Assembly (NCBI GenBank): GCA_028685875.1
Contig: JAQUDD010000006.1
Span: 1-64,000, forward strand
Direction: 5' to 3'
Length of the DNA: 64,000 nucleotides
From: Candidatus Absconditabacteria bacterium
Lineage (GTDB): Bacteria > Patescibacteriota > Gracilibacteria > Absconditabacterales > Absconditicoccaceae
The position numbers and the translations under genes were made by a program. This document shows, piece by piece, positions 23,293 to 63,167 of this stretch. Position 1 is the first letter of the stretch, and the number at the start of each line of letters is the position of its first letter. The notes under the pieces were generated by a model. That model had not been told where the DNA came from, searched no databases, and was given only the letters and a program-made list of their open reading frames with translations.

Positions 23293-23991
23293 TTAGTTGA
23301 ACATCTGATGCAAAAACGAGAGAGATAATCTCTGATCTAGAAAATAGGGAGAAGTGGCTATTGTCACTAAAGAAGCTGAGGTAATCAGCTTTTTTATTTT
23401 TGCTAAGCTATAAGAGAGACGGTTTCCCATCTCTGGAGCTCGGAAGTCTAGATCAATATCCAAGATATACGGCATATCTGGAATACTTAGTTCATCTAAA
23501 CTATATTCCGTTAAGATCATTTTCGCTTCAGAGATCAGCTGAGACTGCAATGCAGGCTGAATAAAATTTCCCACATTACATGAGCCATTGCTAAAGTGAA
23601 AGACATGCTGAGATTGATCCGCTGAGAGAATAGCAGTAGAAAGCTGATGCTGATTCCGATTTACGTCTGAATGCTGATCGATATGTAAGACCGGAAGGAA
23701 ACTCTTCGTCTGGAGATAGTGTTGATACCAAAAAAAGAGCGCATGATTATGATTATCGAAAATATAGACCGGAGGAAGATCGGTTGTTTGAAGTTGGAGA
23801 AAATATTTGAGTCCATGAAAATATTGTATATTTTCTGAACCCCCTGAACTGCTTTGCGTCTCCTCCCCCTTTATAAGGGGGATTTTTTCAGCAAAAGCAA
23901 AATGTTGTTCTTCAATGGTGAGCTTTTCTAGGTCGGAGACTTTGATGAGGGGGGCTACTCGAAGAGGAATTTCTGGATGGACGAATTGCAT
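23293..23991 (-). CDS. UPF0489 family protein
   Basis: A 232-residue protein resembling UPF0489, a family of unknown function. Conserved features are DNHNHALFFW, VLHIDQHSDV and YILDIDLDFRAPE, a pattern of His and Asp residues like that of arginase-type metal sites; a metal-dependent hydrolase fold is plausible. Residues about 36-53 (KGEETQSSSGGSENIQYF) coincide with a palindromic repeat in the DNA (TCCCCCTTTATAAGGGGGA) and look like an in-frame insertion. About 175 bases upstream, up to cysS, hold no gene. No in-frame TGA. Confidence 0.75.
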   Translation of the reverse strand: MQFVHPEIPLRVAPLIKVSDLEKLTIEEQHFAFAEKIPLIKGEETQSSSGGSENIQYFHGLKYFLQLQTTDLPPVYIFDNHNHALFFWYQHYLQTKSFLPVLHIDQHSDVNRNQHQLSTAILSADQSQHVFHFSNGSCNVGNFIQPALQSQLISEAKMILTEYSLDELSIPDMPYILDIDLDFRAPEMGNRLSYSLAKIKKLITSASLVTIATSPYFLDQRLSLSFLHQMFN

Positions 23992-24162
23992 ATTTGCATC
24001 AGTATTTTGGAGAAAGAATCATGGGTAGTAGTTTTTCATATTCTGATTATAGCTATTTTTGGAAAGGATGGAAGAGTTTTCGTTTAATTAAAGAGGAATG
24101 TATTTGAAATATGCCCCTATTTTACTACTATCATTTCTAAGAGCTTTATTTAAAGTTTTTTC

Positions 24163-27100
24163 ATGCAAAAACTTTTTTCTAGAATCAGATTTTTCTTGCT
24201 TTTTTCTCTTGTTTTACTCCTATGAGTTGTGAATTTTTCTTCTGCTAATTATGAGGAGTTTCTGAAAGAAATGGAATACGTGGGGATTGATATTGCAAGT
24301 TTTCGCCAAAAACAAGATATTTCTCGTTTTGAGATAGCGAGGCTTTTGAATGCAGTAGAATGTGAAAACTGTATTACGCCACCAGATTGGATGCTTCAGA
24401 AGTATACTCAGGCATATTGGACGACTTTTAGTACTTTGCCAGATAAGGATTTTGGGGATGTCTTTTTTCAATGAGCAACTTTTAATAGACAGTCTTACTA
24501 TTATTGTGTAGCATATGTAGGGGATCAAGAGTATATGAGAGGATATCCTTTAGCGACCTCTCCTCTCTGTGGGGGAAAGTTTTGTGGGCAGAATGCGAAT
24601 ACCAAGGCAGAATTTTTTCAGTCGGTGCTGAATATTATTGATGAACATATTATGACCAGATATAAAGCTGATTGGAAAGCAGTTCAGCAGTGGTTTAGGG
24701 GATTAAAAAAGGGGGAATATACCTACAATACGCTTTCAGAACAAGATATTGCTACTATCAATGCAGTAAGTCCTGTAACTGCCACTATTTCTTCTACCCA
24801 AGAATTTCAAGCTTGGCTTAAATACTGTATGTTTAATCTTCAGGCATGTGATTTTCAGACTTTTGGAGCTATTCTTCAGGGATTTTGGCCGATTAGTGAA
24901 CTTAATATTCTCGTAAGAGAGGGAGTGATTTCGGCAAATGATGCTCAGCAGGCTTATGCTACGATCAATGGAGAAGAGGTCTTACAAATTCTTTATTATG
25001 TCTATCGTAATTATAGTGGTTGTAGTTTTGATCCTGATTATGATTGTGATGGAATATTCAATCATTTAGATAATTGTCCTTATGCTTACAACCCTCGTCA
25101 GACAGATTTGGATGGCGATGGAATAGGAAATGTGTGTGATGATGATATTGATGGAGATGGAGAGAAAAATTCGATAGGTATCGTAGATGATAACGATAAT
25201 ATTATCATTGGGAAATGGGATGATACACTTGATCAGACTCCTTTAGGAGAGAGAAGAATCTGATTTTCATTTTTTATTCAGACGAGAAGTATTGATGCTG
25301 CTCCTAGTAGAAGAGTGCATCTTGCATTGATTACTGATACTACCCTGAGAAATATTCAACGGGATATGGGAGATGGAAAGACCTATACAACAACTCTTCC
25401 TACTCTCGCACATAGCTACGATCGTTCCTGACATTATACAATTAAGGCAATAGGAACGAATACTAAGGGAGAACAAGCTGAGGCGTCTACGAGAGTCTTT
25501 ATTGGACATGGAAATGAAGCTGCCTATGCTTTGCATATTGAGACAAACTTTAGTTTTAAAAGTCAGGGAGTAGAATATACCTTTACTCCAAAATATCAGG
25601 GACAGATTGATAAAATTATTTGGACGTTTGATAATGCTGATACTCAACAAGCGTCTCCTACTACTCAGATTAAAAAGGTGTTTCAACAGGATGGAATTCA
25701 TGGAGTTACTGCTAAAGCATATTATCAGAATGTTTTGAAAGCGGTAGCTGCTACTACGGTTCGTAGTTCTTCTAAGGCAGAGTATGTACAACTCACTCTT
25801 GATGAGGCTTCATTACAAGATCCCGTTAAGGTACAGACTAATTTGATAGGGAGAGTTATTCAAGATATTGAAGCTATACAGCGAAATCGGGGAGATGATA
25901 CTATTGATTCTACTACAGGACTTGTAGCTCAGCATCAATATCAGGATTCAGGTTTGAAAACATTAATACAGACGGTTCTTTTTGCTGACCAATCACAGTT
26001 TCAGAATATTGTTACCTTGTTTGTAGCTAATCCTTTTTCTCAGTATTCTATGGCACTTAATACTTCGGGAACAGAATTCTCTTATGCTCAATATCAACCT
26101 TTGGGGCTTTCTTTGTCTGTTCTTCCTATGAGTGTGTTGAAGAGTATTCAGTCTTTTACTACGTTTGAAGTGGGAAGCTGGAAGACCTTTTCTCATCCTG
26201 TATTGAAGGATATTCGTTTGGACCACAGTTATATTTCTGCTGGGCAGAAGACCGTGAATAGTTCCGTAGAGGTGAATAGGTGTGTGCATCTTACTAATCA
26301 AGGATCGTTGAGTATTTCTCCTTCTGATTTGTGTTTGGAGGCAAAGCAAAATACTACTTTGTCTCAGTTTACGTGTGATATGGATGAGGATGGAGTTCCT
26401 GATATTTGTGATGATGATATTGATGGAGACGGAAATAAAAATTTGATAGGGATTATTCGTTATGAAACAGAGGATTGTTCGTATACTGCAGATAATCTTA
26501 ATGTTGATCTTTTAAGACAGCATGTAGGTGTATGTAGTTTAGATAATTGTCCTTTTACTACTAATCCTGATCAGAGGGATCTAAATAATAATGGAATAGG
26601 TGATGTTTGCGATGGCTGGTTCATTGATATTTTAGTTCAAAATTCTACTCAACAAGGAACAATTGCGGATCAGGATGGTGATGGGATTCCCGATCAAGAA
26701 GATGCCTGTCCTACTATTCCTGGTTCTATACTCAATCAAGGATGTCCAGATTTTTCTCTTGTAGATGATGCATATTGTGAATCATGAGCTCCGGTTACTT
26801 GTGGAGATGGAAAGATAGATGCAGGAGAAACTTGTGAGAATTGTCCAGAAGATGTCGGAGTTTGTACTTCTACTTGTGGAGATGGAAAGATAGATGCAGG
26901 AGAAACTTGTGAGAATTGTCCAGAAGATGTTGGAGTTTGTATTTCTACCTGTGGGGATGGGAAGATAGATGCGGGGGAGACTTGTGCGAACTGTCCGGAA
27001 GATGTTGGAGTTTGTATTTCTATTTGTGGGGATTGAATTGTTGTCCCCTGAGAAACCTGTGAGAATTGTCCGGAAGATGTTCCTGTATGTGAAGAGGTCT

Positions 27101-28164
27101 TATCTACCTGTGGGAACGGTACAATAGATATTGGGGAGAATTGTCAAAATTGTCCTCAGGATGTTGGTGTATGTATTTCTATTTGTGGAGATTGAATTGT
27201 TGCTTCCTGAGAAACCTGTGAGAATTGTCCGGAAGATGTTCCTGTATGTGAAGGGGTCTTATCTACTTGTGGGAACGGAATATTAGATCTTTGAGAGGCA
27301 TGTGATGATGGAAATAATAATGGGAAAAATGGTAAATGTTCTCTCACTTGTAAAAATCTTTGACCAGATGTTCCTTTAACCTGTGGAGATGGGAAGATAG
27401 ATGCAGGAGAGACTTGTGCGAACTGCCCAGAAGATGTCCAAGTGTGTGCTACGAGATGTGGGAATGGGATAGTAGAACTTATGGAGGCATGTGATAATGG
27501 AACCAACAATGGTAAAGACGGGAAGTGTTCTCTTACCTGTGAGAAACTTTGACCAGATGCGCCTTTAACCTGTGGGGATGGGAAGATAGATGCAGGGGAG
27601 ACTTGTGCGAACTGTCCAGAAGATGTCCAAGTGTGTGCTACGAGATGTGGGAATGGAGTGGTGGAACTTATGGAGGCATGTGATAATGGAACCAACAATG
27701 GTAAAGACGGGAAGTGTTCTCTTACCTGTGAGAAACTTTGACCAGATGTTCCTTTAACCTGTGGAGATGGGAAGATAGATGCAGGAGAAACTTGCGCGAA
27801 CTGTCCGGAGGATGTCCAAGTGTGTGCTACGAGATGTGGGAATGGAGTGGTGGAACCTACAGAGCAGTGTGATAATGGAACCAATAATGGGAAGGATGGC
27901 GTGTGTTCACTTCGCTGTACCTTTGTTTCTTGTGGAAATGGAATTGTAGACTCCTGAGAGACCTGTGAAACTTGTCCTCAGGATGTGGGACGGTGTATCG
28001 TAGAGCAAAATTGTAATACTTGTCCCTGTCAGTATGCTGATTTTACTAGTGATCTTAGGGCAGGTGATATAATTAGAGCGGTGTTACAAGACGTACCAAG
28101 AAATGTATTTTATACTTATTCACCGCTGGTGAATCCTGAGAATTTTCTTGACTTTAATTTCTAA
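24163..28164 (+). CDS. Secreted Cys-rich surface protein with thrombospondin type 3 and PKD-like repeats
   Basis: A 1,333-residue exported protein. A signal peptide (residues 1-27) is followed by a region with SLH-like features (ISRFEIARLLNA, then KDFGDVFFQ). Calcium-binding thrombospondin type 3 repeats (DLDGDGIGNVCDDDIDGDG) lie near 290-350 and again near 734-850. PKD-like modules (GHYTIKAIGTNTKG) lie between. Residues about 876-1290 are Cys-rich repeats alternating CGDGKIDAGETCENCPEDV with CDNGTNNGKDGKCSLTCEKL, related to the DUF4215/Myxococcus cysteine repeat. Many TGAs fall in these repeats where sister copies have GGN Gly codons. Probably a rigid, calcium-stabilised surface fibre or adhesin; no enzyme domain seen. 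Confidence 0.85.
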
Positions 28165-34053: not shown

Positions 34054-34441
34054 ATTGTATTATTTTTTTCTTCTTCATACTTTTTCTTCTTCATACTTTT
34101 TGATGACCCCAAAAAGTATGCAAAAAGGGTTTTCGAGATTTCAATAATGCTTAAGGCTTGCTGGTTATTGGAAGGGAAGATAGTAAAGCTCCTCGTTTCC
34201 CACTTCGTGGGTTCCCTGCTCGGAGCTTAGGGGTGGCTTGTTTTTTCTAGATTTGCTACGGATGCAAATCGTGAAATCTCGGGGTAGTCAATTACATCTG
34301 GGTGCTAAGCAATTTTTTATTCAGGCACCCGGGTGGTGACGGGTTGTCATGTTGAGCGAAGCGCTGCGCCCCGCACAAAGCTGCGGGGAAGAATCCAGAA
34401 ATAGGCTACTTCACATGCACTGGATCCTTCATTACATTCAG
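34054..34441. repeat. Spacer with palindromic repeat elements
   Basis: No gene seen. The stretch holds CCCACTTCGTGGG near 34199-34211. A composite element runs from about 34315 to 34440, with CCCCGCACAAAGCTGCGGGG and, on either side, pieces of the recurring motif GTCAT..TGAGCGAAGCG...GAATCCAG. Related sequences occur at 38.3, 39.4 and 43.8 kb. Confidence 0.6.
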
Positions 34442-34744
34442 GATGACTTTTGTTGATTACTTTGCACTTCTCATGAGCATGAGCCATACTCGTTGCCTGA
34501 GTTCATTTCTTTGTTCTGGAGTATCAATCTGGGTCATATTCAAAACTTAGAATATCTCTATCTTCTTTTAATGAATGATATCATAGAAAGAATTTCTTCT
34601 CCACAGTATCTTTGAATTGCTAAAATAAAGTCTTTATCTGAATACTTTGAAAAAATACATAGATCTTATATGTCTTATAAATCAGGAATTACTGGGGCTA
34701 CTATAAAAACTGAATATATAGTACTTCCTAGAATTGTTTTTTAG
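34442..34744 (+). pseudogene. Orphan 3' fragment of an unrecognised gene
   Basis: A frame without TAA or TAG runs about 100 codons from the edge of the repeat element to TAG 34742-34744, with two TGAs read as Gly. Its translation is protein-like (for example EPYSLPEFISLFWSINLGHI, later SYKSGITGATIKTEYIVLP), but no plausible start is visible. It may be the tail of a gene cut by the repeat. I do not recognise the family with confidence. Confidence 0.35.
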
Positions 34745-36759: not shown

Positions 36760-36995
36760 GGCTTCGTCATTCCGAATGCCAATGAGGAATCTTTGTGGAT
36801 AAGGAATCCTTTTTTACAGAGATTCTTTTTTCTTTTAAAACCCCTCTTCCTTCCGCAATACTTGCGGAATTCCCTCTCCCCTTATCAAGGGAGAGCTATT
36901 TTCTCTCTGAGGAGGGAGGTGTCCGACTCCGCAGCTTGATGCGGGGGAACAGGACGGAGGGTTTCGTATCACTCAACCATCACTGGTGCTCAATT
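36760..36995. repeat. Repeat-rich spacer upstream of dnaK
   Basis: No gene seen between dnaK and the small membrane protein. The stretch contains CTTCCGCAATACTTGCGGAA, then CTCTCCCCTTATCAAGGGAG, and a second GC-rich hairpin around 36930-36950 (CCGCAGCTTGATGCGGG). The CTCTCCCCTT.TCAAGGGAG core reappears in frame inside the FkbM-type gene at 62.76 kb. Confidence 0.6.
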
Positions 36996-39394: not shown

Positions 39395-39562
39395 ATGCTT
39401 TCTCCTCATCTTGAGGCCTGTGAAGGATCCAATGGCTGCAAACTGGATTCTTCGTTTCACTCAGAATGACGGCTATGTCATCTTGAGCTTGCGAAGGATC
39501 TAGATATAGGAAGAGCTGGATTCTTCGTTACGCCTTGCTCCACTCAGAATGACGAATTATTG
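39395..39562. repeat. Tandem copies of the GGATTCTTCG...CAGAATGACG repeat
   Basis: Two copies of CTGGATTCTTCGTT followed by a CACTCAGAATGACG end, and the inverted partner GTCATCTTGAGCTTGCGAAGG, lie between holA and the next gene. The same unit occurs inside elp3. No gene seen in 39383-39639. Confidence 0.7.
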
Positions 39563-42426: not shown

Positions 42427-42453
42427 ACCCTTGAGACTGACTCAGGGTTTTTT
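42427..42453 (+). terminator. Terminator after the 41696-42403 gene
   Basis: ACCCTTGAG (42427-42435) pairs with CTCAGGGT (42441-42448), one mismatch, followed by TTTTTT. Confidence 0.85.
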
Positions 42454-42511
42454 CTGTGGTAACTTGGTGGCGAATTATTATACTTTCTCTTGTTTATTAT
42501 CTTTTGTTTCT

Positions 42512-44599
42512 ATGGATTTTTTTGTGCCTTTAGTGTATCAAATACTTTCTGAACTTCCTGATATTGATGCAGAGAGACTCAAAGCTTTGCAGAGACGTTT
42601 TTCCAAAGAACACAACCTGCGTACGCTTCCGAGTAAATCTCAGCTGCTTCAGGCTTATTTTTCTCTTGTTGACCAAAAAAAGATAGCAAAACATCCTGAT
42701 TTTGAGACTTTACTCAAAAAGAGGGCTATTCGTTCCCTTTCTGGTATTGTGTCTGTTCAGGTGCTTACTAAGCCACGAATGTGTCCAGCGTCTTGTATCT
42801 TCTGTCCCAATGATCCCACGATGCCCAAGAGTTATATTAAATCTGAACCGGGGGCAATGAGAGCTTTTCTCAATCAATTTGATCCGATCAAGCAAACCTA
42901 CAATAGATTGCAGTCTCTTACTCTTACCTGACATAATCCAGAAAAGATTGAGATGATCGTTCTTGGGGGTTCTCGAGATGCTTATCCTATGGACTATAAA
43001 ACAGATTTCATCAAGTCTCTCTATGATGCGTGTAATACCTTTTCTCAGCTTGAGATTAGAATGAAAAATCAGACTTCTTCTCTTCTTTCTTCAGAAGAAT
43101 CTAAATATGGCTTTGACGTTCTCAATACGCCAGAAATTCACTTTTCTTCAAGCTTAGAGGAAGCAATAGAAAATAATCAGACTGCAAAGCATAGAATCAT
43201 CGGACTTACGATAGAGACGCGTCCTGATCTGGTTACTCATAAGAACTGTCAATCTCGAAGAGAGCTGGGCGTGACGAGGGTAGAAATGGGAGTGCAATCA
43301 AGTGATGATGAGATTTTGGAGATGAATAAAAGAGGGCATGGGATTCAGAAAGTTAAAGAGGCGATGCATCTGATGCGTCAATATGGGTTCAAAATTTCTC
43401 TTCACTTGATGCCAGGGCTCTATGGTTCGACGGTAGCAAAAGATATTCAGACGTTTGCTGATGTTTTTTCTGATCCGTATTTTAAACCTGATGAGCTCAA
43501 GGTGTATCCTACTTCCGTCATCCCTGATACTGAGTTATATACACTGTATCAACAGGGGAAATATACGCCTATTACGAGTGAAGAAATTCTCCAAATTATT
43601 CGTGAAATCTTTCAGCATATTATTCCGCCCTATACGAGGATTAAAAGGCTGATTCGTGATATTCCTGCAACAGAGATTGCAGCGGGTTCTTCGATTACCA
43701 ATCTTTCTCAGCTTGCACATACGAGTTTGTTGAAAGAATATAGAGAGGCGCTGGACGTTCCCCTTATGAAGGGGGGAAGCGAAGCGGGGGATTCGAGACA
43801 CAGACTGGATTCTTCGCTTCGCTCAGAATGACAAACTGTTGAGGAACAAGGCGATAAATTGGATTGCCACGCCTTCGGCTCGCAATGACAAAAAGTTGAA
43901 ATGAATATTTTGTCATTCTGAAAGAGTGAAGCGATTGAGGAGTCCAGAAGTGATAAATTGGATTTTTCACTGCGCTCAGAATGACTATCTAGGAAGCAGG
44001 AAGTAGAGCACTTTTACACCCGTCTCTATGGGAAGTATCAGCTTTTTTCTGCTGAGGAATTTTCTGATTTTTCTTTACCAAATACTCCTTCTTCATCAGA
44101 AACGCAGACCTTTATTTTTTGAGAGAAGCCTGACCTGAAGTGATTTCGTCATTTCGTTTCTCTGGACACGAGGTCGAGAGAGGTGAGAAATAAGAAAGAA
44201 CAAACAAAATATCTCAATCTTGTAATTAGAAAGTATCAGAGCTCTGTTGGTCAGGAGTATTTCATCTCTTATGAAGATGAGCTGGGATATCTTTATGGAT
44301 TTACTAGGTTACTTCTTCCGTCTGCTGAACATATTCTTGAGTATCCTTGATTAGGTGCGGCTACGGCAATCATTAGAGAATTACATGTGTATGGAGAGCT
44401 TCAAAAAATTGGGGAGAAGTCGAATTCTGCGACTCAACATTCTTGACTGGGAAAAAAATTACTTCAGGTGGCAGAACACTTGGCAAAGAAAGCTGATTTT
44501 TCTCATATCTCTGTGATTTCTGGAGTGGGAGTGAGGGCGTATTATTTCAAACATGGCTATGCGTTGGAGGGTACCTATGTCAAAAAAGTACTCCTATAA
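42512..44599 (+). CDS. Elp3-family radical SAM/GNAT tRNA-modifying enzyme
   Basis: A 695-residue Elp3-like protein, which uses a radical SAM [4Fe-4S] cluster and acetyl-CoA to build the cm5U modification at tRNA wobble uridine. Cys 91, 95 and 98 (CPASCIFCP) form the cluster site. Conserved IIGLTIETRPD, GVTRVEMGVQS, MPGLYGST and RIKRLIRDIPATEIAAGS follow. The C-terminal acetyltransferase shows IRELHVYGEL, QHS-(TGA)-LGKKLLQVAEHLA and VISGVGVRAYY; the TGA at 44444 is at a conserved Gly. Residues about 415-491 are encoded by repeat DNA inserted in frame. The Cys cluster before REVR is replaced by FRHFVSLDTRSREVR. Confidence 0.9.
43758..43985 (+). repeat. Palindromic repeat cluster inside elp3, in frame
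   Basis: TTCCCCTTATGAAGGGG is followed by three to four units of the GGATTCTTCG...CTCAGAATGAC family in both orientations (for example 43809-43832, 43916-43945 and 43954-43985), the same as in the 39.4 kb spacer. The whole block keeps the elp3 frame, with four TGAs (43829, 43886, 43919 and 43982) read as Gly. No TAA or TAG occurs in that frame. Confidence 0.75.
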
Positions 44600-44648
44600 T
44601 ATCTTTCTTCTATGTTAGGTATTAAATTCACTAAAAAGCAACCAAAAA

Positions 44649-44683
44649 TGAGCGATAAATTGCTTCTCGTTTCGCTTTTTTTT
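44649..44683 (+). terminator. Weak terminator after elp3
   Basis: AGCGA (44651-44655) pairs with TCGCT (44672-44676), followed by eight T. The loop is long, so strength is uncertain. Confidence 0.5.
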
Positions 44684-44734
44684 GTGTTTTGGAATATACT
44701 TATAGGTGACTTTATACGTCCTTATTGTCTGAAT

Positions 44735-47700
44735 ATGAAGAAGTATATAGCTATTTTAATGACGTTTCTTTTGTGTTTTCAACACGTTCTGTTTCCTGTT
44801 ATTGCTGAGGAAGAGTTTATTTTTATGATTGCAGGAGATTTAGTGCAGTCCACAGAAGATTGAAATGGTATTATAGAAGATTGAGAGGAGATAAGTGAGG
44901 AAGAGATAAATGAAGAAGAGATAAATGAAGAAGAAATAAATGAAGAAGAAACAAGTGAGGAGGAAACAACTGAAGAAGAGATAAATGAAGAAGAGATAAA
45001 TGAAGAAGAAATAAGTGAAGAAGAAACAAGTGAGGAGGAAACAACTGAAGAAGAAATAAGTGAGGAAGAAATAGATGGGGAAGGAACAACTGAGGAAGAA
45101 ATAGATGGGGAAGGAACAACTGAGGAAGAAATAGATGGGGAAGGAACAACTGAGGAAGAAACAGGTGAAGGAGAAACAACAGCAGAGAACGAAGAAACAC
45201 TTCTTTTGGAAGAACTGGATGATATGTACCTCTCTCTTTCTTCTCTTAGTGGGTCGGACCTTTTCATTACGACTTGGCAGACGACTACTGCAAATGAAAG
45301 TATCAGTATCCCGACAGTAGGTGGGGGCTATAATTTTGAGATTGACTGGTGAGATGGAAGTACGGGAAGTTATCAATGAACTGCACCCGTGGTATCTCAT
45401 ACCTATGGAGAACTAGGAATTCATACGGTAATGATTCGTGGGCTGTTCCCAAGAATCTATTTTAACAATACTTGAGATAAGGATAAAATTTTAACGGTGG
45501 AGCAGTGGGGAGATATTGAATGGACGAGTATGGAGGGTGCCTTTTATGGAGCGAGTAATCTTGCAGTGTTAGCGACTGATGCTCCGCAGTTTAATACGGT
45601 ATCTACGATTAGTTTTTCTAATATGTTTCGTTGAGCTACGAATTTAACGGGAAACTTTAACCATTGGGATACGAGCAAAGTGATTAGTATGGGATGGATG
45701 TTTCAATGAGCGACGAATTTCAACCAGCCAGTAGGGAGTTGGGATACGAATAGTGTTACGAATATGTGGTATATGTTTTACTGAGCAACTTCTTTCAATC
45801 AAGCGATCGGGAATTGGGACACGAGCAAAGTGACGAATATGTCGTATATGTTTCAATGAGCGACGAATTTCAATCAGCCGTTGAGTGGTTGGAATACGAG
45901 TAAAGTGACCACCATGCAGAATATGTTTTATAATGCAAATAGCTTCAATCAGTCTTTGAGTGGTTGGGATACGAGTCAGGTGATGAGTATGGGATGGATG
46001 TTTCAATGAGCGACGAATTTCAATCAGCCGCTAAGTGGTTGGAATACGAGTAAAGTGACCACCATGCAGAATATGTTTTATCAAGCAAGCAACTTTAATC
46101 AAGATATTAGAAATTGGGATACGAGCAATGTGATAAGTATGGTGGAGGTGTTTCGTTGAGCGACTACCTTTAATCAGAACATAGGAGATTGGAACATCAG
46201 TAAAGTAACGAATATGAACAATATGTTTCGTGGGGCCACTGCTTTCAATGGAGCAGTCTGATCATGGGATACGAGTCAGGTGACGAATATGGGAGAGGTA
46301 TTTAATTGAGCAAGTAGTTTTAATCAAGATATTTCAAGTTGGGATACGAGTAAAGTGACGAATATGGGACGGATGTTTCAAGGGGCAAGTAGTTTTAATC
46401 AAGATATTTCAAGTTGGGATACGAGTAAAGTGACGAATATGGGACGGATGTTTAATGGAGCCATGAACTTCAATCAATCGTTAAGTGGATGGGATGTGAG
46501 TAGTGTGACTAGTATGACACAGATGTTTAATTGAGTACACCTCTCAACCTATAACTATAATGCAATTCTGGATGGTCGAAGTCAGCAAGGAGTAAGAAGC
46601 TGAGTGAGTTTCCACGGAGGAAACTCGAAGTATGGAGGCTGTGAAGTGAATGCTCAGCAGGGAATTGCAGGAAGAGCACTTCTTCAGAGTAAGGGATGGA
46701 CGATCACTTTTGATGGCTGAATTGAGGCCTGTTTCTGGCCCTTTGTCACGACCTGGCAGACCACTATGGCAAATGAAAGTGTCACGATTCCGACTATAGG
46801 AGCAGGATATGATTTTACCATTGACTGGTGAGATGGAAGTACAGGAAGTTATCAGGGAACTGCACCTGTAGTGTCTCATACTTATACTGAACTAGGAGTG
46901 TATACGGTAAAGATTAGTGGATTGTTTCCAAGAATCTATTTTAATAATACTTGAGATAAGGGTAAAATCTTGACGGTAGAGCAGCGGGGAGATATTGAAT
47001 GGAGGAGTATGATTGGTGCCTTTTATGGGGCCAGTAATTTAGCTGTCTTGGCGACTGATGCTCCGAAGTTTACTACGGTATCTAGTGTCAGCCTTCAATA
47101 TATGTTTTCTGATGCGACGAATTTGACGGGAAACTTTAACCATTGGGATACGAGCAAAGTAACGAGTATGGGTACGATGTTTGCAGGAGCAAGTAATTTT
47201 AATCAGCCTTTAAGTGGATGGGATACGAGTCAGGTAACGATTATGGGTAATATGTTTCGTGATGCAACTGCCTTCAATCAATCGTTGAGTTGATGGAATA
47301 CGAGCAAAGTGACAAATATGGAGGGTATGTTTAATGGAGCAAGTAGTTTCAATCAATCGTTGAGTTGATGGGATACGAGCAAGGTAATTACTATGGGTAC
47401 CATGTTTCGTCAGGCTAGTGCTTTCAATGGAGAAATCTGATCGTGGGATACGAGCAGTGTGACGAATATGGATAGAATGTTTACTAGTGCAAGCAACTTC
47501 AATCAGCCAATCGGGAATTGGGATACGAGCAAAGTGACGACTATGGCATATATGTTTCAATGAGCAACTACTTTTGATCAAGACCTCTCTTCACGAAGTG
47601 TGACAGGAGTGACGAATATGAACGATATGTTCCGTTATGTAAACCTTTCCACCTATAACTATAATGCTCTTCTAGATGGTCGAAGTAAGCAGGAAGTAAA

Positions 47701-50700
47701 AAGTTGAGTGAGTTTCCACGGAGGAACTTCCAAATATGGAGGTTGTGCGATCAATACTCAGCAAGGAATCGCGGGAAGAGCACTTCTTCAGAGTAAAGGA
47801 CGGACGATTAGTGATGGAGGAGAAGAAGGATGTGTCAGGCCGTTCATCACGACTTGGCAGACGACTACCGCAAATGAAAGTATTATGATTCCGACAGTAG
47901 GTGCGGGATATACTTTTATAATTGATCGATGAGATGGAACTACGGGAAGCTATAACGGAACAGCACCGAATCCTTCGCATATCTATCTTGAATCGGGAAT
48001 CTATACGGTGCAGATTAGTGGAAGTTTCCCAAGAATCTACATCAATAATGGGACCATGAAAGATAAGATCTTGACGGTAGAGCAGCGGGGAAGTGTAGAG
48101 TGGACAAGTATGGAGGGTGCCTTTTATGGAGCGACTAATCTTGCGGTATTAGCGACGGATGCACCAAGGTTTACCACTGTACCTACCGTTAACTTTAGTT
48201 CAATGTTTGCTGGAGCAACAAATTTAACGGGAAATTTTAATCACTGGGATACGAGTCAGGTGACGAATATGCAAAGTATGTTTCAATGAGCAACGAATTT
48301 CAATCAAGCGATCGGGAATTGGGATACGAGCAAGGTGACGACTATGCAGAGTATGTTTAATGGAGTAAGTAGTTTCGATCAACCGTTAAGTGGATGGGAT
48401 ACGAGTCAGGTAACGAATATGTCTTCTATGTTTTACAATGCAAGAAGCTTCGATCAACCGATCGGGAATTGGGATACGAGTCAGGTGACGACTATGTTCA
48501 ATATGTTTTTTCAAGCAACTACTTTTGATCAAGACCTTTCTGAACGAAGGGTGACGGCAGTGACGACCATGCACGATATGTTTCGTTATGCAAAACTCTC
48601 TACTTTCAATTACAATGCGCTCCTTGATAGTCGAAGTCAGCAGGGAGTACAAAGCTGAGTATCCTTTCAAGGAGGAGGTTCGAAGTATGGGGGTTGTGCA
48701 ATCAATGCTCAGCAAGGAATCGCAGGAAGAGCACTTCTTCAGAGTAAAGGACGGACGATTAGTGATGGTGGAGAAGAAGCATGTACTCTTATTACAGGAG
48801 TTCTATCCTACTCTCCAAGTACTCTTACTAATCAGGATGTACTAGTAACCTTAACACTTAGTGCCCCTGGAACTCTTCTTTCCTCAGGTCGAAGTGGATC
48901 TGACAAAATTTTTACTAAAACATTCTCAGAGAATGTCACAGGAGAACTGGTGGAATTTAGGAATTCTTTAGGTACTACTGGAAGTGCAGTAGTAATGATA
49001 AGCTGGATAGATAAGGTAGCACCAACGGGAAGCATAGCTTATACTCCAGCTACTATTACCAATGGAAATGTAATAGCAACGTTAACTACGAGCGAAAGAA
49101 TCTGAACTCCCGCGGGATGGACGAAACTCGATGATACTACTTACATAAAAGTATTTACTGCTAACGAAAGCGGAGTAGTGCTCTTGTATGATGAAGTAGG
49201 AAACGAGGGAACGGTAAGCTATGAAATCACCTGGATTGATAAGACAGCAATAGTTTGAACCATCAACTATTCTACTACGGGAAACACGAATGAAGATGTA
49301 ACAGCAACTATTAGCTTCAATAAAACAGGGGTAACGATCACGAACAACGGAGGAAATACAAACTATACCTTCACCGGAAATGGAAGCTTCATGTTTGAGT
49401 TTATGGATGCGTATGGAAATACGGGAAGTGAAACGGCAAGTGTGACACGGATTGATAAGAGTGTTGTGATTGGAACGATTAGTTACTCAACGACAGGAAA
49501 TACGAATGAAGATGTGATAGCAACTATCACGTTCAATAAAACAGGGGTAACGATCACGAACAACGGAGGAAGCGCAAATTATACCTTCATAGGGAATGGA
49601 AGCTTTACCTTCACTTTCACTGACGCGTATGGAAATGCCGGAAGCACAACTGCAACCGTAACTTGGATTGATAAGAGTGCAGTAGTTTGAACCATCAACT
49701 ATTCAACAACAGGAAATACGAGTGAAGACGTGACAGCAAGTATTAGCTTCAATAAAACAGGAGTGATAATCACGAACAACGGAGGAAGTGCTTTCTATGT
49801 GTTCACCGGAAATGGAAGCTTCACGTTTGAATTTGAAGATGCTTATGGAAACACGGGAAGCGCAGTCGCAAGCGTGAGTTGGATCGATCAAGATCTTCCA
49901 AGCGGAACTATTAGCTATACTCCCGATACTCCTACCAATGGAACGGTTGTTGCGGTTTTGAGGACGAATAAACCCATAGTGATCCCTGATGCTTGGACGA
50001 GACTGGATCCAACCACTTATGTGAGACTTTTCGCTGAGAATGAAACGGGAACCCTTCTTTTGGAAGATCTCTTAGGAAATCAGGGAAGTGTAGAGTACGC
50101 AGTAACGTGGATTGATCGTAGTCCCGTGATCGGAACTATTACCTATTCAACGACAGAGAAGACTGTTAATCCTGTTATTGTTACCATTAGCTTCAATAAA
50201 TCTGGTGTGATTGTAGATCCTCCTTATGAAGGAGGAGAAGGTGGTTCTGGTTGGTTTTATACATTCACCGGAAACGGAAGCTTTACCTTCACCTTCAGGG
50301 ACATCTATGGAAATACGGGAAGCACAACTGCAATAGTAAGCTGGATTGAGAGTTCTCTCCCGGGAATGGGAGGTGGAGGAGGTTCAACCCTCACAAAGGA
50401 TACTTGTTCGACTAATTCTTATGATAAGCGTTGTGCTCTCCCTCCGTATATGGGACATACTTCTCCTGATGATGAAAAGGCTTGATTTTCTCCTCCTTCT
50501 GAAATTGAACCTTTGTTGCAGAAATCGGTATATGCATGGTCCTTTGAACATGGATTAACTACTAGGCCAACTCTGGAGCTTGCGAGGTTTGGTGACAGCT
50601 TAACGAGAGCAGAAGCTGCAAAGATTATTAGTGTGTATGCTACGAAATTTTTGGGTAGGGCAATAGATCCTACCAAAACTGCCTGTCTGGGATTCTCAGA

Positions 50701-51028
50701 TCTCTGAGAAGTGAATCTTGAACTTCAAGGATATGTCATTCAAGCTTGTCAACTTGGTTTGATGGGGTACCGAGCAGATGGAATAAGTGTAAAATCCCAT
50801 TTTCTCCCTAATGATATGATTACTAGAGCTGAAGTAGGAACGCTATTTTCAAGACTCCTTCGAGGAAATATCTATGCAGGAATTGATGAATATCGATATC
50901 AAAGACATCTTTTGGCACTCAAAAAGAAGTCAATTATGAACCTGATTGATGCTCCATTGCTACCTGAGCTGAGAGAGCATCTTTATCTGATGCTCTATAG
51001 GCGATCACATGCAGACCAAACTCTATAA
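44735..51028 (+). CDS. Giant S-layer-anchored surface protein with DUF285 and Ig-like repeats
   Basis: A 2,097-residue exported protein. A signal peptide (residues 1-25) is followed by a Glu-rich low-complexity stretch (about 48-165). Three homologous blocks start near residues 175, 669 and 1035. Each opens with a PKD-like module carrying the WGDGST motif and continues with DUF285/BspA-type repeats (unit [16 protein letters not shown] plus a variable MF.GAT). Ig-like repeats (about 1352-1870, unit [16 protein letters not shown]) come next, then a C-terminal SLH domain ([32 protein letters not shown]) for cell-wall anchoring. Dozens of TGAs are Gly; sister repeats use GGN at the same place. 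BspA relatives mediate attachment, so adhesion is likely. Confidence 0.9.
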
Positions 51029-60606: not shown

Positions 60607-62386
60607 ACTTCTTTCCAATTTGAATTTTTAATGTATTTAGTTCCATTTTTTCTTCATTACTCAGGTTTTGACTTTTCGTTCCTATTTTGAAGTATTCTTG
60701 GATATTGGGAGCGATCACTCTTTGGATAATTGCTTTCTTTGTTAAAGTATCTTCTACGTTATGTAATTCTTTTTCTCGTCGGAGCTGGATTTCGTTGATT
60801 TCCTCTTTTTCTGGGTCGGTAAGTTCTCCTCTGAAAACTCTCGCGAGGTAGCTTTGTGGAGTGGCGATGGTAATTTGCTTTGCGAAGGAGGTAAGCGTTT
60901 GCATGAAGTCGTCTAAGGAATCCCTCTGTCCTTCGGATATTTCCCCTTCAGAAGGGGAAAAACACTTGCTCAAAAAATTATCTTGAAAAAGCGAAGAAAA
61001 GAGGAGCTCTCTGTTTGGTTGATAATGTTCTGGTTGAGTTTGCTGTCTTTGTCTCTGTTGTTGTTTCAAAAAAATCTTTCCTTCTCCAGACTTATATTTT
61101 TGCAATTGGACATTGATGATCTCGGTAGCAAATCAGAGTTTTTCGGCTAATAGTCCTTTGTAGTGTTCTTGGATGGTCACATTCCCAACTGAGATAATTA
61201 GCTCAAACATTGCATTGATCAGCTTTTGTTTATCTATGGGGGAAGTCATATCGCTATTCGTTCTTATTTTCTCAAACATCACCAGAAACCCATCGTGCGC
61301 CTGTTCCAAAGCAGTTTCAAAAAGCTGTTTCCCATTCTCAAGATTTGCTACATCATCTATATCTTTACATCCTTCTGGTAAACTGATGATTTTTGGGAAG
61401 ATATCCTGATTGTAGCAGAGTTTCAATGCTCTAAAACTTGCCTGCTGTCCAGCTTTATCATTATCAAAGAGAAAATAGAAATTCTCGGTATGTCTTTTTA
61501 CTATTTTGATGTGTTCTTCACTGAGTGCTGTCCCACTGGTTGCTACTCCAATTGGGAAGTCAATTCTTGCAAGGGCAATCACATCCATCTGTCCTTCCAC
61601 GACGATCAGCTTTTGAAATTTGTTAATGTAGGGTTTAGCATGAGAGAGTCCATAGAGGATTTTTGACTTCTCAAAGGCTTTATGTTCCGTGCTGTTGAGA
61701 TATTTGGGTTGGTCCTCGGGATTGATGACTCTTGCACTGAATCCTACCACATTTTTCATTAGATCGTAGATGGGGAAGGTGATCCTATTTCTAAAAAATG
61801 CATAGACATCCCCGCTCAGATTTTTCTTTGCGAGGGAAGCTTGCACCATGTCTTCATCATTAAATCCCTTGTTTCTGAGATAACTGAGCAATTCATAGTG
61901 CTTATCACTAGCGTATCCTACGCCAAATTCTTTGATGATTGTAATATCTAATTTTCTGTTTTCTGTCAGATATTGCATTGCTTCGGGACTTTTCTCCAAA
62001 CTGTCCACAAAAAACTGCTGGGCAAGCTTGTGCATTCTCTTCATTTTTTCTTTTTCGTCTTTGCTATATTCTTGATAGGCAGTTGAAGTCTGATATTGTG
62101 CGATATCAATATGATTTTGCTCAGCGAGGAGTTTGACTGCGTCTCGGAAGTCTACTTTTTCACTTTCTTCTACGAACTTAAAAACATTTCCTCCTATTCC
62201 ACATCCAAAGCATTTGAAGATCTGCTTCTGAGGAGAAACCATAAAGGAAGGCGTTTTTTCATTATGAAAGGGACAGCAACCGGAAAGATTGCTCCCTGAC
62301 CTCTTGAGAGGGACATATCTCGAGATGACATCTACGATATCTACGCGGGAGAGAATTTCATCTATTATTGAATTGTTTACTGCCAT
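60605..62386 (-). CDS. dnaG: DNA primase
   Basis: A 593-residue bacterial primase laying RNA primers at the replication fork. The N-terminal zinc finger uses Cys 38, His 41, Cys 59 and Cys 62 (CPFHNEKTPSF and KCFGCG). The polymerase core includes VGFSARVINPEDQPKYLNS, and the TOPRIM domain has VVEGQMDVIALA and YFLFDNDKAGQQA. A TGA at about 61133 is read as Gly and joins the C-terminal helicase-interacting region. That region contains SPSEGEISEGQRDSLDDF, encoded by a palindromic repeat element in frame. Confidence 0.95.
60919..60965 (-). repeat. Palindromic element inside dnaG
   Basis: GGAATCCCTCTGTCCTTCGG, then ATTTCCCCTTCAGAAGGGGAAA. It keeps the frame of dnaG and resembles the elements at 36.85 and 62.75 kb. 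Confidence 0.65.
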
Positions 62387-62486
62387 GTAGTGAGGAGTTT
62401 GAAAGATTCGGAAACCTGCTTACAGTATAAGGATTTTTCCTTACAGTATCAAGGGAGAGATTTTTTTTCTTTTTTGAGTTGAGATA

Positions 62487-63167
62487 TTATTTTGTTACTT
62501 TCACTAGCAAAATACCCTGATTATACGGGCTTATCCATTCTTCTAGAGAAGGGAAATGTTGTCTCATCTTTTCCTTTAGTTCTTGATAGCGTTCGATCTT
62601 TTCTGGATCAAAAAGATGCACCTCCATAATCATCGCCCCAATCCTCTCAAAAATTTCTTCACCCCAGCTCTCTAGGACTTCAAACTCCATCCCTTCAATA
62701 TCCATCTTTACAACAATGTCCTCTAAAAATACCTCTTCTTTCTTCGCAAGCTCAGGATTCCCTCTCCCCTTCTCAAGGGAGGACAAATACTGCTTCATAT
62801 TCTTCATCTGCACCAGCATTTCTTCTCCTTGAGGATTGAGAAAAGAAGACATAGAACTGGATTGCATCGTTTTTTCTCTATTGATCAAAAATCTGATTTC
62901 TTCCTCTTTTGCTCCTATCCCAAAGGTATTCCAGATAATTTTTGGATCGTCTTTCAGACACTTCATTGCTTCTTCGATCAAAAAGGGGAGTGGCTCAAAA
63001 TAATGAATTTCTGCCTCACTTCCTATTTCCCTACACCACTCACTGAAATAGCCCATATGTCCACCGATGTCAAAAATTGTCTTTGCATTCAAAATCTCTT
63101 GTTTCATGCAAGCGTATTCTTCTTTTACAAAAATTTCGTAATGGAGTGCTTGATTATAGTCTTTCAT
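62487..63167 (-). CDS. FkbM-family methyltransferase
   Basis: A 226-residue SAM-dependent methyltransferase of the FkbM type, usually O-methylating sugars or glycolipids. The SAM loop is TIFDIGGHMGYFSEWC, the acidic loop IHYFEPLP, and the family signature VVKMDIEGMEFEVLES. Residues about 126-145 (YLSSLEKGRGNPELAKKEEV), just before the signature, coincide with the palindromic DNA element CTCTCCCCTTCTCAAGGGAG and look inserted. It starts two bases after the tatD stop, so it is in an operon with it. No in-frame TGA. Confidence 0.85.
   Translation of the reverse strand: MKDYNQALHYEIFVKEEYACMKQEILNAKTIFDIGGHMGYFSEWCREIGSEAEIHYFEPLPFLIEEAMKCLKDDPKIIWNTFGIGAKEEEIRFLINREKTMQSSSMSSFLNPQGEEMLVQMKNMKQYLSSLEKGRGNPELAKKEEVFLEDIVVKMDIEGMEFEVLESWGEEIFERIGAMIMEVHLFDPEKIERYQELKEKMRQHFPSLEEWISPYNQGILLVKVTK
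62742..62787 (-). repeat. Palindromic element inside the FkbM-type gene
   Basis: CTTCGCAAGCTCAGGATTCC followed by CTCTCCCCTTCTCAAGGGAG. It is almost the same as the intergenic copy at 36846-36894 (CAATACTTGCGGAATTCC, then CTCTCCCCTTATCAAGGGAG). Confidence 0.7.

Follow-up and report, generated by a model that had tools for sequence, protein, structure and literature searches.

Palindromic insertions in dnaG and an FkbM-type gene

We asked what the palindromic DNA segments are that lie in frame within two neighbouring genes of a Candidatus Absconditabacteria bacterium, dnaG and the gene of an FkbM-type methyltransferase, and how they may have come to be there. The DNA analysed, a stretch of 64 000 nt here called the window, belongs to a genome of 1.03 Mb (16 contigs, 99% complete) whose genes stay free of stops only when TGA is taken as Gly (table 25). 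DnaG, matched in 54 of 59 relatives, is a single protein of 593 aa only under that table, as table 11 breaks it at 61130–61132. Upon alignment, 28 of 29 relatives were 12–13 residues shorter at the segment in DnaG and the nearest one, G005, was shorter by 7 residues, and 12–13 residues of the FkbM-type protein were missing in 10 of 10 relatives (8 of the 10 repeated), at a position immediately preceding the conserved KMDIEG strand. In each gene the segment is an in-frame insertion outside the conserved family sequence. The first-pass annotation had proposed that one element type lies in both genes and that relatives should have gaps at exactly these segments, and such gaps were found as described; the encoded peptides that it gave were also correct and in frame, and conservation of the segments within the DnaG or FkbM families was not seen in the 29 + 10 relatives.

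Hairpins were likewise present where that annotation had placed them in dnaG, the FkbM-type gene and the spacer at 36838–36970, but the core CCCCTT(n)AAGGGG that it ascribed to all three occurs literally only in dnaG, the other two cores being CCCCTT(n)AAGGGA. The dnaG element comprises a hairpin at 60940–60960 (9-bp stem, 3-nt loop), a small stem and a tail of GGGATTCC, with the hairpin of the FkbM-type gene located at about 62764–62782. In the latter gene and in the spacer GGAATCCCTC and the hairpin abut, with a second small stem between them in dnaG. The annotation also placed the encoded peptides in probable surface loops, for which no structural support was obtained: the predicted fold of the FkbM-type protein alone had a mean pLDDT of 36, and its profile matched no solved structure (PDB chain).

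Table 1. Coordinates of the two genes and of the palindromic elements located in the window.
Feature	Position	Strand	Basis
dnaG, DNA primase, 593 aa	60605..62386	-	Zn_ribbon_DnaG, DNAG_N, Toprim; genetic code 25
FkbM-type methyltransferase, 226 aa	62487..63167	-	PF05050, 6.6e-12
dnaG miniature element, encodes FSPSEGEISEGQRDS	60917..60960	-	Insertion in alignment with 29 relatives
FkbM-gene miniature element, encodes SSLEKGRGNPEL	62754..62785	-	Insertion vs 10 relatives
Intergenic element pair, head-to-head, outer ends AACCCCTC / GGAGGGTT	36838..36970	.	By eye
Element in frame in UPF0489 protein gene (23293–24039), peptide PLIKGEETQSSSGGS	23837..23885	-	Palindrome contexts, frame check
Element in frame in elp3 (42431–44599), peptide PLMKGGSEAGDS	about 43755..43870	+	Palindrome contexts, frame check

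A genome-wide element family located mostly within genes

The pattern CCCTTN{1,9}AAGGG was found at 51 sites in the genome, compared to 17 sites for the same pattern read backward as a control, and the palindromes are therefore not due to chance. Inspecting all 51 contexts (32 stretches and the window), we found 34 palindromes within 26 ORFs judged to be real, with the remainder being intergenic or chance-like, as assigned by eye. The host ORFs include LeuRS, MetRS, MurB, MiaB, the CCA-adding enzyme and Elp3. All 34 in-gene copies keep the frame without stops, using the three phases 20, 9 and 5 times, and 7 of them contain an in-frame TGA that requires the TGA=Gly code. A left or right motif in coding orientation accompanies 33 of the 34, as scored with a loose expression on the coding strand only. 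Read along the coding strand, most copies follow one order, namely the hairpin TCCCCCTTATGAAGGGGGA, then a variable small stem, GGGGGTTCGA, spacer sequence, AACCTCCCCTACCCC and another hairpin, or show part of this order; the dnaG copy contains the initial hairpin together with its small stem and tail. Within the 1.03-Mb genome, the exact 22-mer TCCCTCTCCCCTTNNNAAGGGA is present at two places only, the FkbM-type gene and the spacer. Copies in the UPF0489 and elp3 genes, the latter followed by CGTC-type REPs, came in addition to those listed by the first-pass annotation. These elements form a genome-wide family, mostly inside genes, which supports the earlier assignment of the dnaG and FkbM segments to one element type.

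The window also holds two very large repetitive ORFs (24163–28164 and 44612–51028; 1333 and 2138 aa using table 25) with repeats of 75, 189 and 216 nt, probably encoding surface proteins. In a large surface-type repeat protein (L107), two repeat units each contain the palindromic element, which was thus either duplicated together with the repeat or inserted ahead of the duplication. In two genera, ComFC-like genes (L083 and L314) have palindromic elements at roughly corresponding positions, ahead of the VPSHR/IPSHR motif.

Insertions in other conserved enzymes

Eight ORFs of the same genome were aligned to PDB sequences, whereupon clear net insertions were found to coincide with the elements in MetRS (query 116–142), LeuRS and MurB (15 residues), as well as in MiaB (query 123–204 vs 11 residues of the PDB match) and the CCA enzyme (query 161–279). 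GatB had a gain of 6 + 3 residues, the alignment of Dtd was ambiguous, and ArgRS displayed no clear net insertion vs its best PDB match. LeuRS contained six extra blocks vs five relatives, with element sequence in five of the blocks and the DUF559 core in one.

Other in-frame domains were seen in the LeuRS of many among 20 relatives (L168–L187), including PDDEXK_3 (G009 and G021, being PF13366 matches) and, by eye, NUDIX-like, hydrolase-like and ITPase-like segments, with ORFs of up to 1324 aa. From this survey only insert lengths and peptides were taken, since its hairpin search relied on a loose expression and its ‘core’ took in a domain common to more than half of the rows.

DUF559 nuclease domains adjoin the palindromes

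The window's genome has only two PF04480 (DUF559) matches, of 111 bits each, both in frame: residues 504–606 of LeuRS and residues 158–260 of a MiaB/RimO-like protein. Both domains adjoin palindromes, the second having TCCCCCTTATGAAGGGGGA to the left and CCCTCCTTCAAAAGGAGGG to the right. The conserved acidic, Q, H and D residues of DUF559 formed invariant columns in 14 sequences. In relatives, the domain is embedded in MnmA of G048, G021 and G023 at the same loop (PDB alignment for G021), and it lies in frame in LeuRS (G024), Elp3 (G041 and G006), Tgt, Fmt and a Mur-ligase-like gene, several of these gene names being assigned by eye; the G006 unit occupies the same Elp3 region as the element in elp3 of the window. 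We collected 31 DUF559 loci, consisting of the best locus in each of 30 genomes (L108–L137) and the second copy of the window's genome (in L091). Eleven of the 31 were embedded on both sides, and loci classed by eye as gene-embedded numbered 10 of 20 where TGA=Gly applies vs 1 of 11 under the standard code (p=0.047).

Searching within 150 nt of these 31 loci for G-rich perfect stems of at least 7 pairs, we found them upstream of 15/31, downstream of 10/31 and on both sides of 6. Hairpin density falls with distance from the DUF559 loci, with the dnaG/FkbM loci having 5 hairpins in 169 kb. Such hairpins were found in 0 of 30 ribosomal-S6 control loci and in 0 of 12 PDDEXK_3 nuclease loci, where the latter check covered stretch 1200–2150, with the flanks of L269, L271 and L275 missed or cut and these three loci thereby only partly covered. 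Among the best 80 DUF559 loci of the matches listed in a species-genome scan, which came from cyanobacteria, Clostridia, Proteobacteria, Actinobacteria, Leptospiraceae, Chloroflexi and others, a hairpin lay within 200 nt in 67, in contrast to none of the 30 S6 control loci, with 49 upstream, 51 downstream and 33 on both sides. For 77 of these 80, the other three having too short flanks, inverted flank similarity with a score of at least 40 was seen in 22/77 same-locus comparisons, compared to 14/770 for other-locus pairs and 0/64 for distal sequence; direct-orientation flank similarity was also frequent (17/77). Flanking palindromes of this kind are a feature of DUF559 ORFs across many phyla.

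Full units and miniatures within one genome

One relative, G019, contains two DUF559 units, at C1:202163–202680 and near 36.3–36.8 kb of C2, which are 94.4% identical over 518–520 bp (520-column alignment). Their similarity ends at TTGTCTCCC and GGAGGACAA, with no homology between the two sites beyond the hairpin ends. Each unit has the layout hairpin pair, DUF559, hairpin pair, and contains a single long ORF, that of DUF559 with about 125 codons. The same genome has six ORF-less copies with 97–109 bp between the outer hairpins and both ends kept, the left ends matching closely in L313, L315 and L317, fairly in L314 and more poorly in L310 and L316. One G019 copy, located in a ComFC-like gene, is reversed relative to the coding orientation noted above. 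Flanks are A/T runs, and no target-site duplication was recognised by eye. The full copies are discrete duplicated units sharing their ends with the ORF-less copies, and the full and short copies represent an autonomous/miniature pair.

Origin of the dnaG and FkbM segments

Taking these results together, we consider it likely that a REP-like mobile element gave rise to the dnaG and FkbM segments as its miniature copies, and that its full form carries a DUF559 nuclease gene; this link to a nuclease-bearing mobile unit goes beyond the reading of the first-pass annotation. The full unit would be about 0.5 kb, with a G-rich hairpin and a second small stem at its left end, the inverted arrangement at its right end and, between them, a single ORF encoding a nuclease of the DUF559 family (Vsr-like PD-(D/E)XK). 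From the sequence associations we infer that DUF559 drives the mobility of the element, whereby it may nick or cut the hairpin ends and thus copy its own unit as well as miniatures in trans, presumably with low specificity for the insertion site. In reduced, gene-dense genomes one would then see the copies whose insertion was in frame and at a place where the protein tolerates it, with TGA=Gly perhaps enlarging the number of frames that stay open. The inserts probably end up in the protein and are not spliced out, since none of the copies in conserved genes interrupts the reading frame.

Association of palindrome numbers with DUF559

The excess of CTCCYT..ARGGAG over control had a median of 9 in 36 DUF559-positive vs 1 in 23 DUF559-negative genomes (p=0.001), and within family f1 the medians were 16 in 20 positive and 1 in 16 negative genomes (p=5e-5). 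The same tests for PF01797 gave p=0.16 (all genomes) and p=0.04 (f1), all of these p-values treating genomes as independent with kinship ignored. G001 and G005 have DUF559 without an excess of the tested pattern, another palindrome version being present in G001. Palindrome number tracks DUF559, and REP transposases less so.

These numbers bear directly on the alternative that the palindromes are ordinary REPs moved by RAYT/TnpA-REP proteins, being HUH enzymes, with DUF559 ORFs riding inside REP doublets. Known REPs do form inverted pairs flanking RAYT genes and lie in part in frame in genes, in the literature (PMC6006769, PMC3733652), and PF01797 was matched in 19 of the 59 genomes, namely G019 and 18 others; the one Y1/RAYT-type gene of G019 could act in trans, and the presence of RAYT correlates weakly with the excess in f1. 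The genome of the window, however, is element-rich with no PF01797 match, and among RAYT-negative f1 genomes the excess was 7–27 in 10 of 11 that were DUF559-positive, compared to at most 6 in 15 that were DUF559-negative. As the excess follows DUF559 there, a role of RAYT as sole mobiliser was lowered in our assessment and we find this alternative unlikely. DUF559 could otherwise act as a homing endonuclease, cutting a specific empty allele and being copied in by repair, with the palindromes as by-products of the ends. Such an assignment of DUF559 to the EDxHD homing family is made in one source (PMC9403480), and the same MnmA loop is occupied in three genomes, and LeuRS in two. Within an identity matrix of 18 DUF559 sequences, the nuclease lineage was nonetheless not tied to one target site: MnmA copies were 36–54% identical and LeuRS copies 49%, as against 63–70% for copies from three genomes that sit in different genes (RimO-like, Mur-like and MnmA). 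That DUF559s of the same gene are not closest kin favours movement between sites over site-bound homing, the shared insertion loops then suggesting tolerance of the protein segment, and the two 94%-identical G019 units likewise lie at unrelated sites of one genome. With kinship not following the insertion site, homing too was lowered, and we regard it as rather improbable.

Two further readings concern only the inserts themselves. Locally arisen low-complexity loops, resembling each other by convergence, would agree with the differences between the dnaG and FkbM copies outside the hairpin and with part of the longer loop being present in the nearest DnaG relative, but DNA-level palindromes with tails are common to dozens of other inserted sites and the exact 22-mer is shared by the FkbM-type gene and the spacer, making convergence highly improbable. 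We hold it to be equally far-fetched that the inserts are removed at the RNA or protein level, as an intron, an intein or by translational bypass. Their location in essential enzymes, with as many as six blocks in LeuRS, would fit removal, but the uninterrupted frame of all 34 in-gene copies speaks against it, as do the lack of any Rfam match in 36500–64000 and of an intein domain in the Pfam scans made; a Hint splicing domain had no Pfam match in L094, with the LeuRS insert scanned using NCBIfam only.

Relation to known systems

DUF559 is described as a Vsr-like or EDxHD nuclease in two papers (PMC12907096, PMC9403480). With the mobile DUF559 unit as the likely source of the dnaG and FkbM segments, we compared it to known repeat systems. 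Rickettsia RPEs are reported to be short palindromic repeats in frame in unrelated functional protein genes (PMC10969869, PMC3733652). The present elements are alike in being palindromic repeats in frame in conserved protein genes, but differ from the RPE descriptions in their hairpin-pair ends, a full unit with DUF559 and a host with TGA as Gly, this comparison being one of description. With REPs, REPINs and REPtrons the unit shares a lone small nuclease gene enclosed by inverted palindromic ends, numerous copies devoid of the gene and some in-frame copies within genes, and REPs around HUH transposases are already known (PMC6006769, PMC3733652). Inverted palindromes on both sides were found here as well (33 of the best 80 loci listed; 22/77 by flank similarity; G019), but the unit has no Y1/HUH gene: its ORF encodes a Vsr-like PD-(D/E)XK nuclease and not an HUH tyrosine transposase. 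Furthermore, the hairpins are mostly of CCYCCCTT type and full units duplicate whole in G019. That genome, with 2 full and 6 miniature copies, also presents the relation of MITEs to an autonomous parent, in which a longer coding copy and the short ones have both ends in common.

EDxHD homing endonucleases (I-Bth0305I) and the Vsr-like VsrA belong to the same nuclease superfamily as DUF559 (PMC3943268, PMC12907096, PMC9403480). The DUF559 loci are unlike these in being palindrome-flanked, with no intron or intein seen and with a kinship that does not follow the site. Rpn (Transposase_31) is also a PD-(D/E)XK nuclease, of a different Pfam family from DUF559, and we know of no palindromic-end unit for it. 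It is linked to mobility in one paper (PMC5350276).

A search of open-licence PMC found no paper joining DUF559 and palindromic repeats. What appears to be new is a palindrome-ended unit, accompanied by miniatures, that has DUF559 as its sole gene, no such unit having been found in open-licence PMC. There seems to us to be an even chance that DUF559 proteins mobilise a bacteria-wide class of very small elements (~0.5 kb) whose ends are inverted palindromes and which differ from HUH, DDE, tyrosine and serine transposons. On this reading they would also be the enzyme so far lacking for many orphan REP-like repeats, among them the ones translated as part of essential Absconditabacteria genes. Many bacterial palindromic repeats lack a known enzyme, for which a nuclease bounded by its own palindromes, with coding and gene-less copies present together, is a direct candidate. 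The copies found in frame in genes for primase, tRNA synthetases and cell-wall enzymes would be a route from mobile DNA to protein sequence, and genes using TGA=Gly may be more tolerant of embedded DUF559.

CGTC-tagged REPs, reported in one source as intragenic in frame and without a dedicated transposase (PMC3733652), match a second repeat of the window, TGTCATTC...GAATCCA (e.g. 43801–43832), and not the DUF559-linked palindromes. This second repeat, (T)GTCATTCTGAGCGAAGCGAAGAATCCA-like, was seen at 34416–34447, 39439–39470, 43801–43832 and 43954–43985; it fits the description of CGTC/TGTC-tagged REPs in having an 8–9 bp stem starting with AT and a CCA tail, and copies of it lie in frame in Elp3 and, together with a palindrome, in MetRS (L105).
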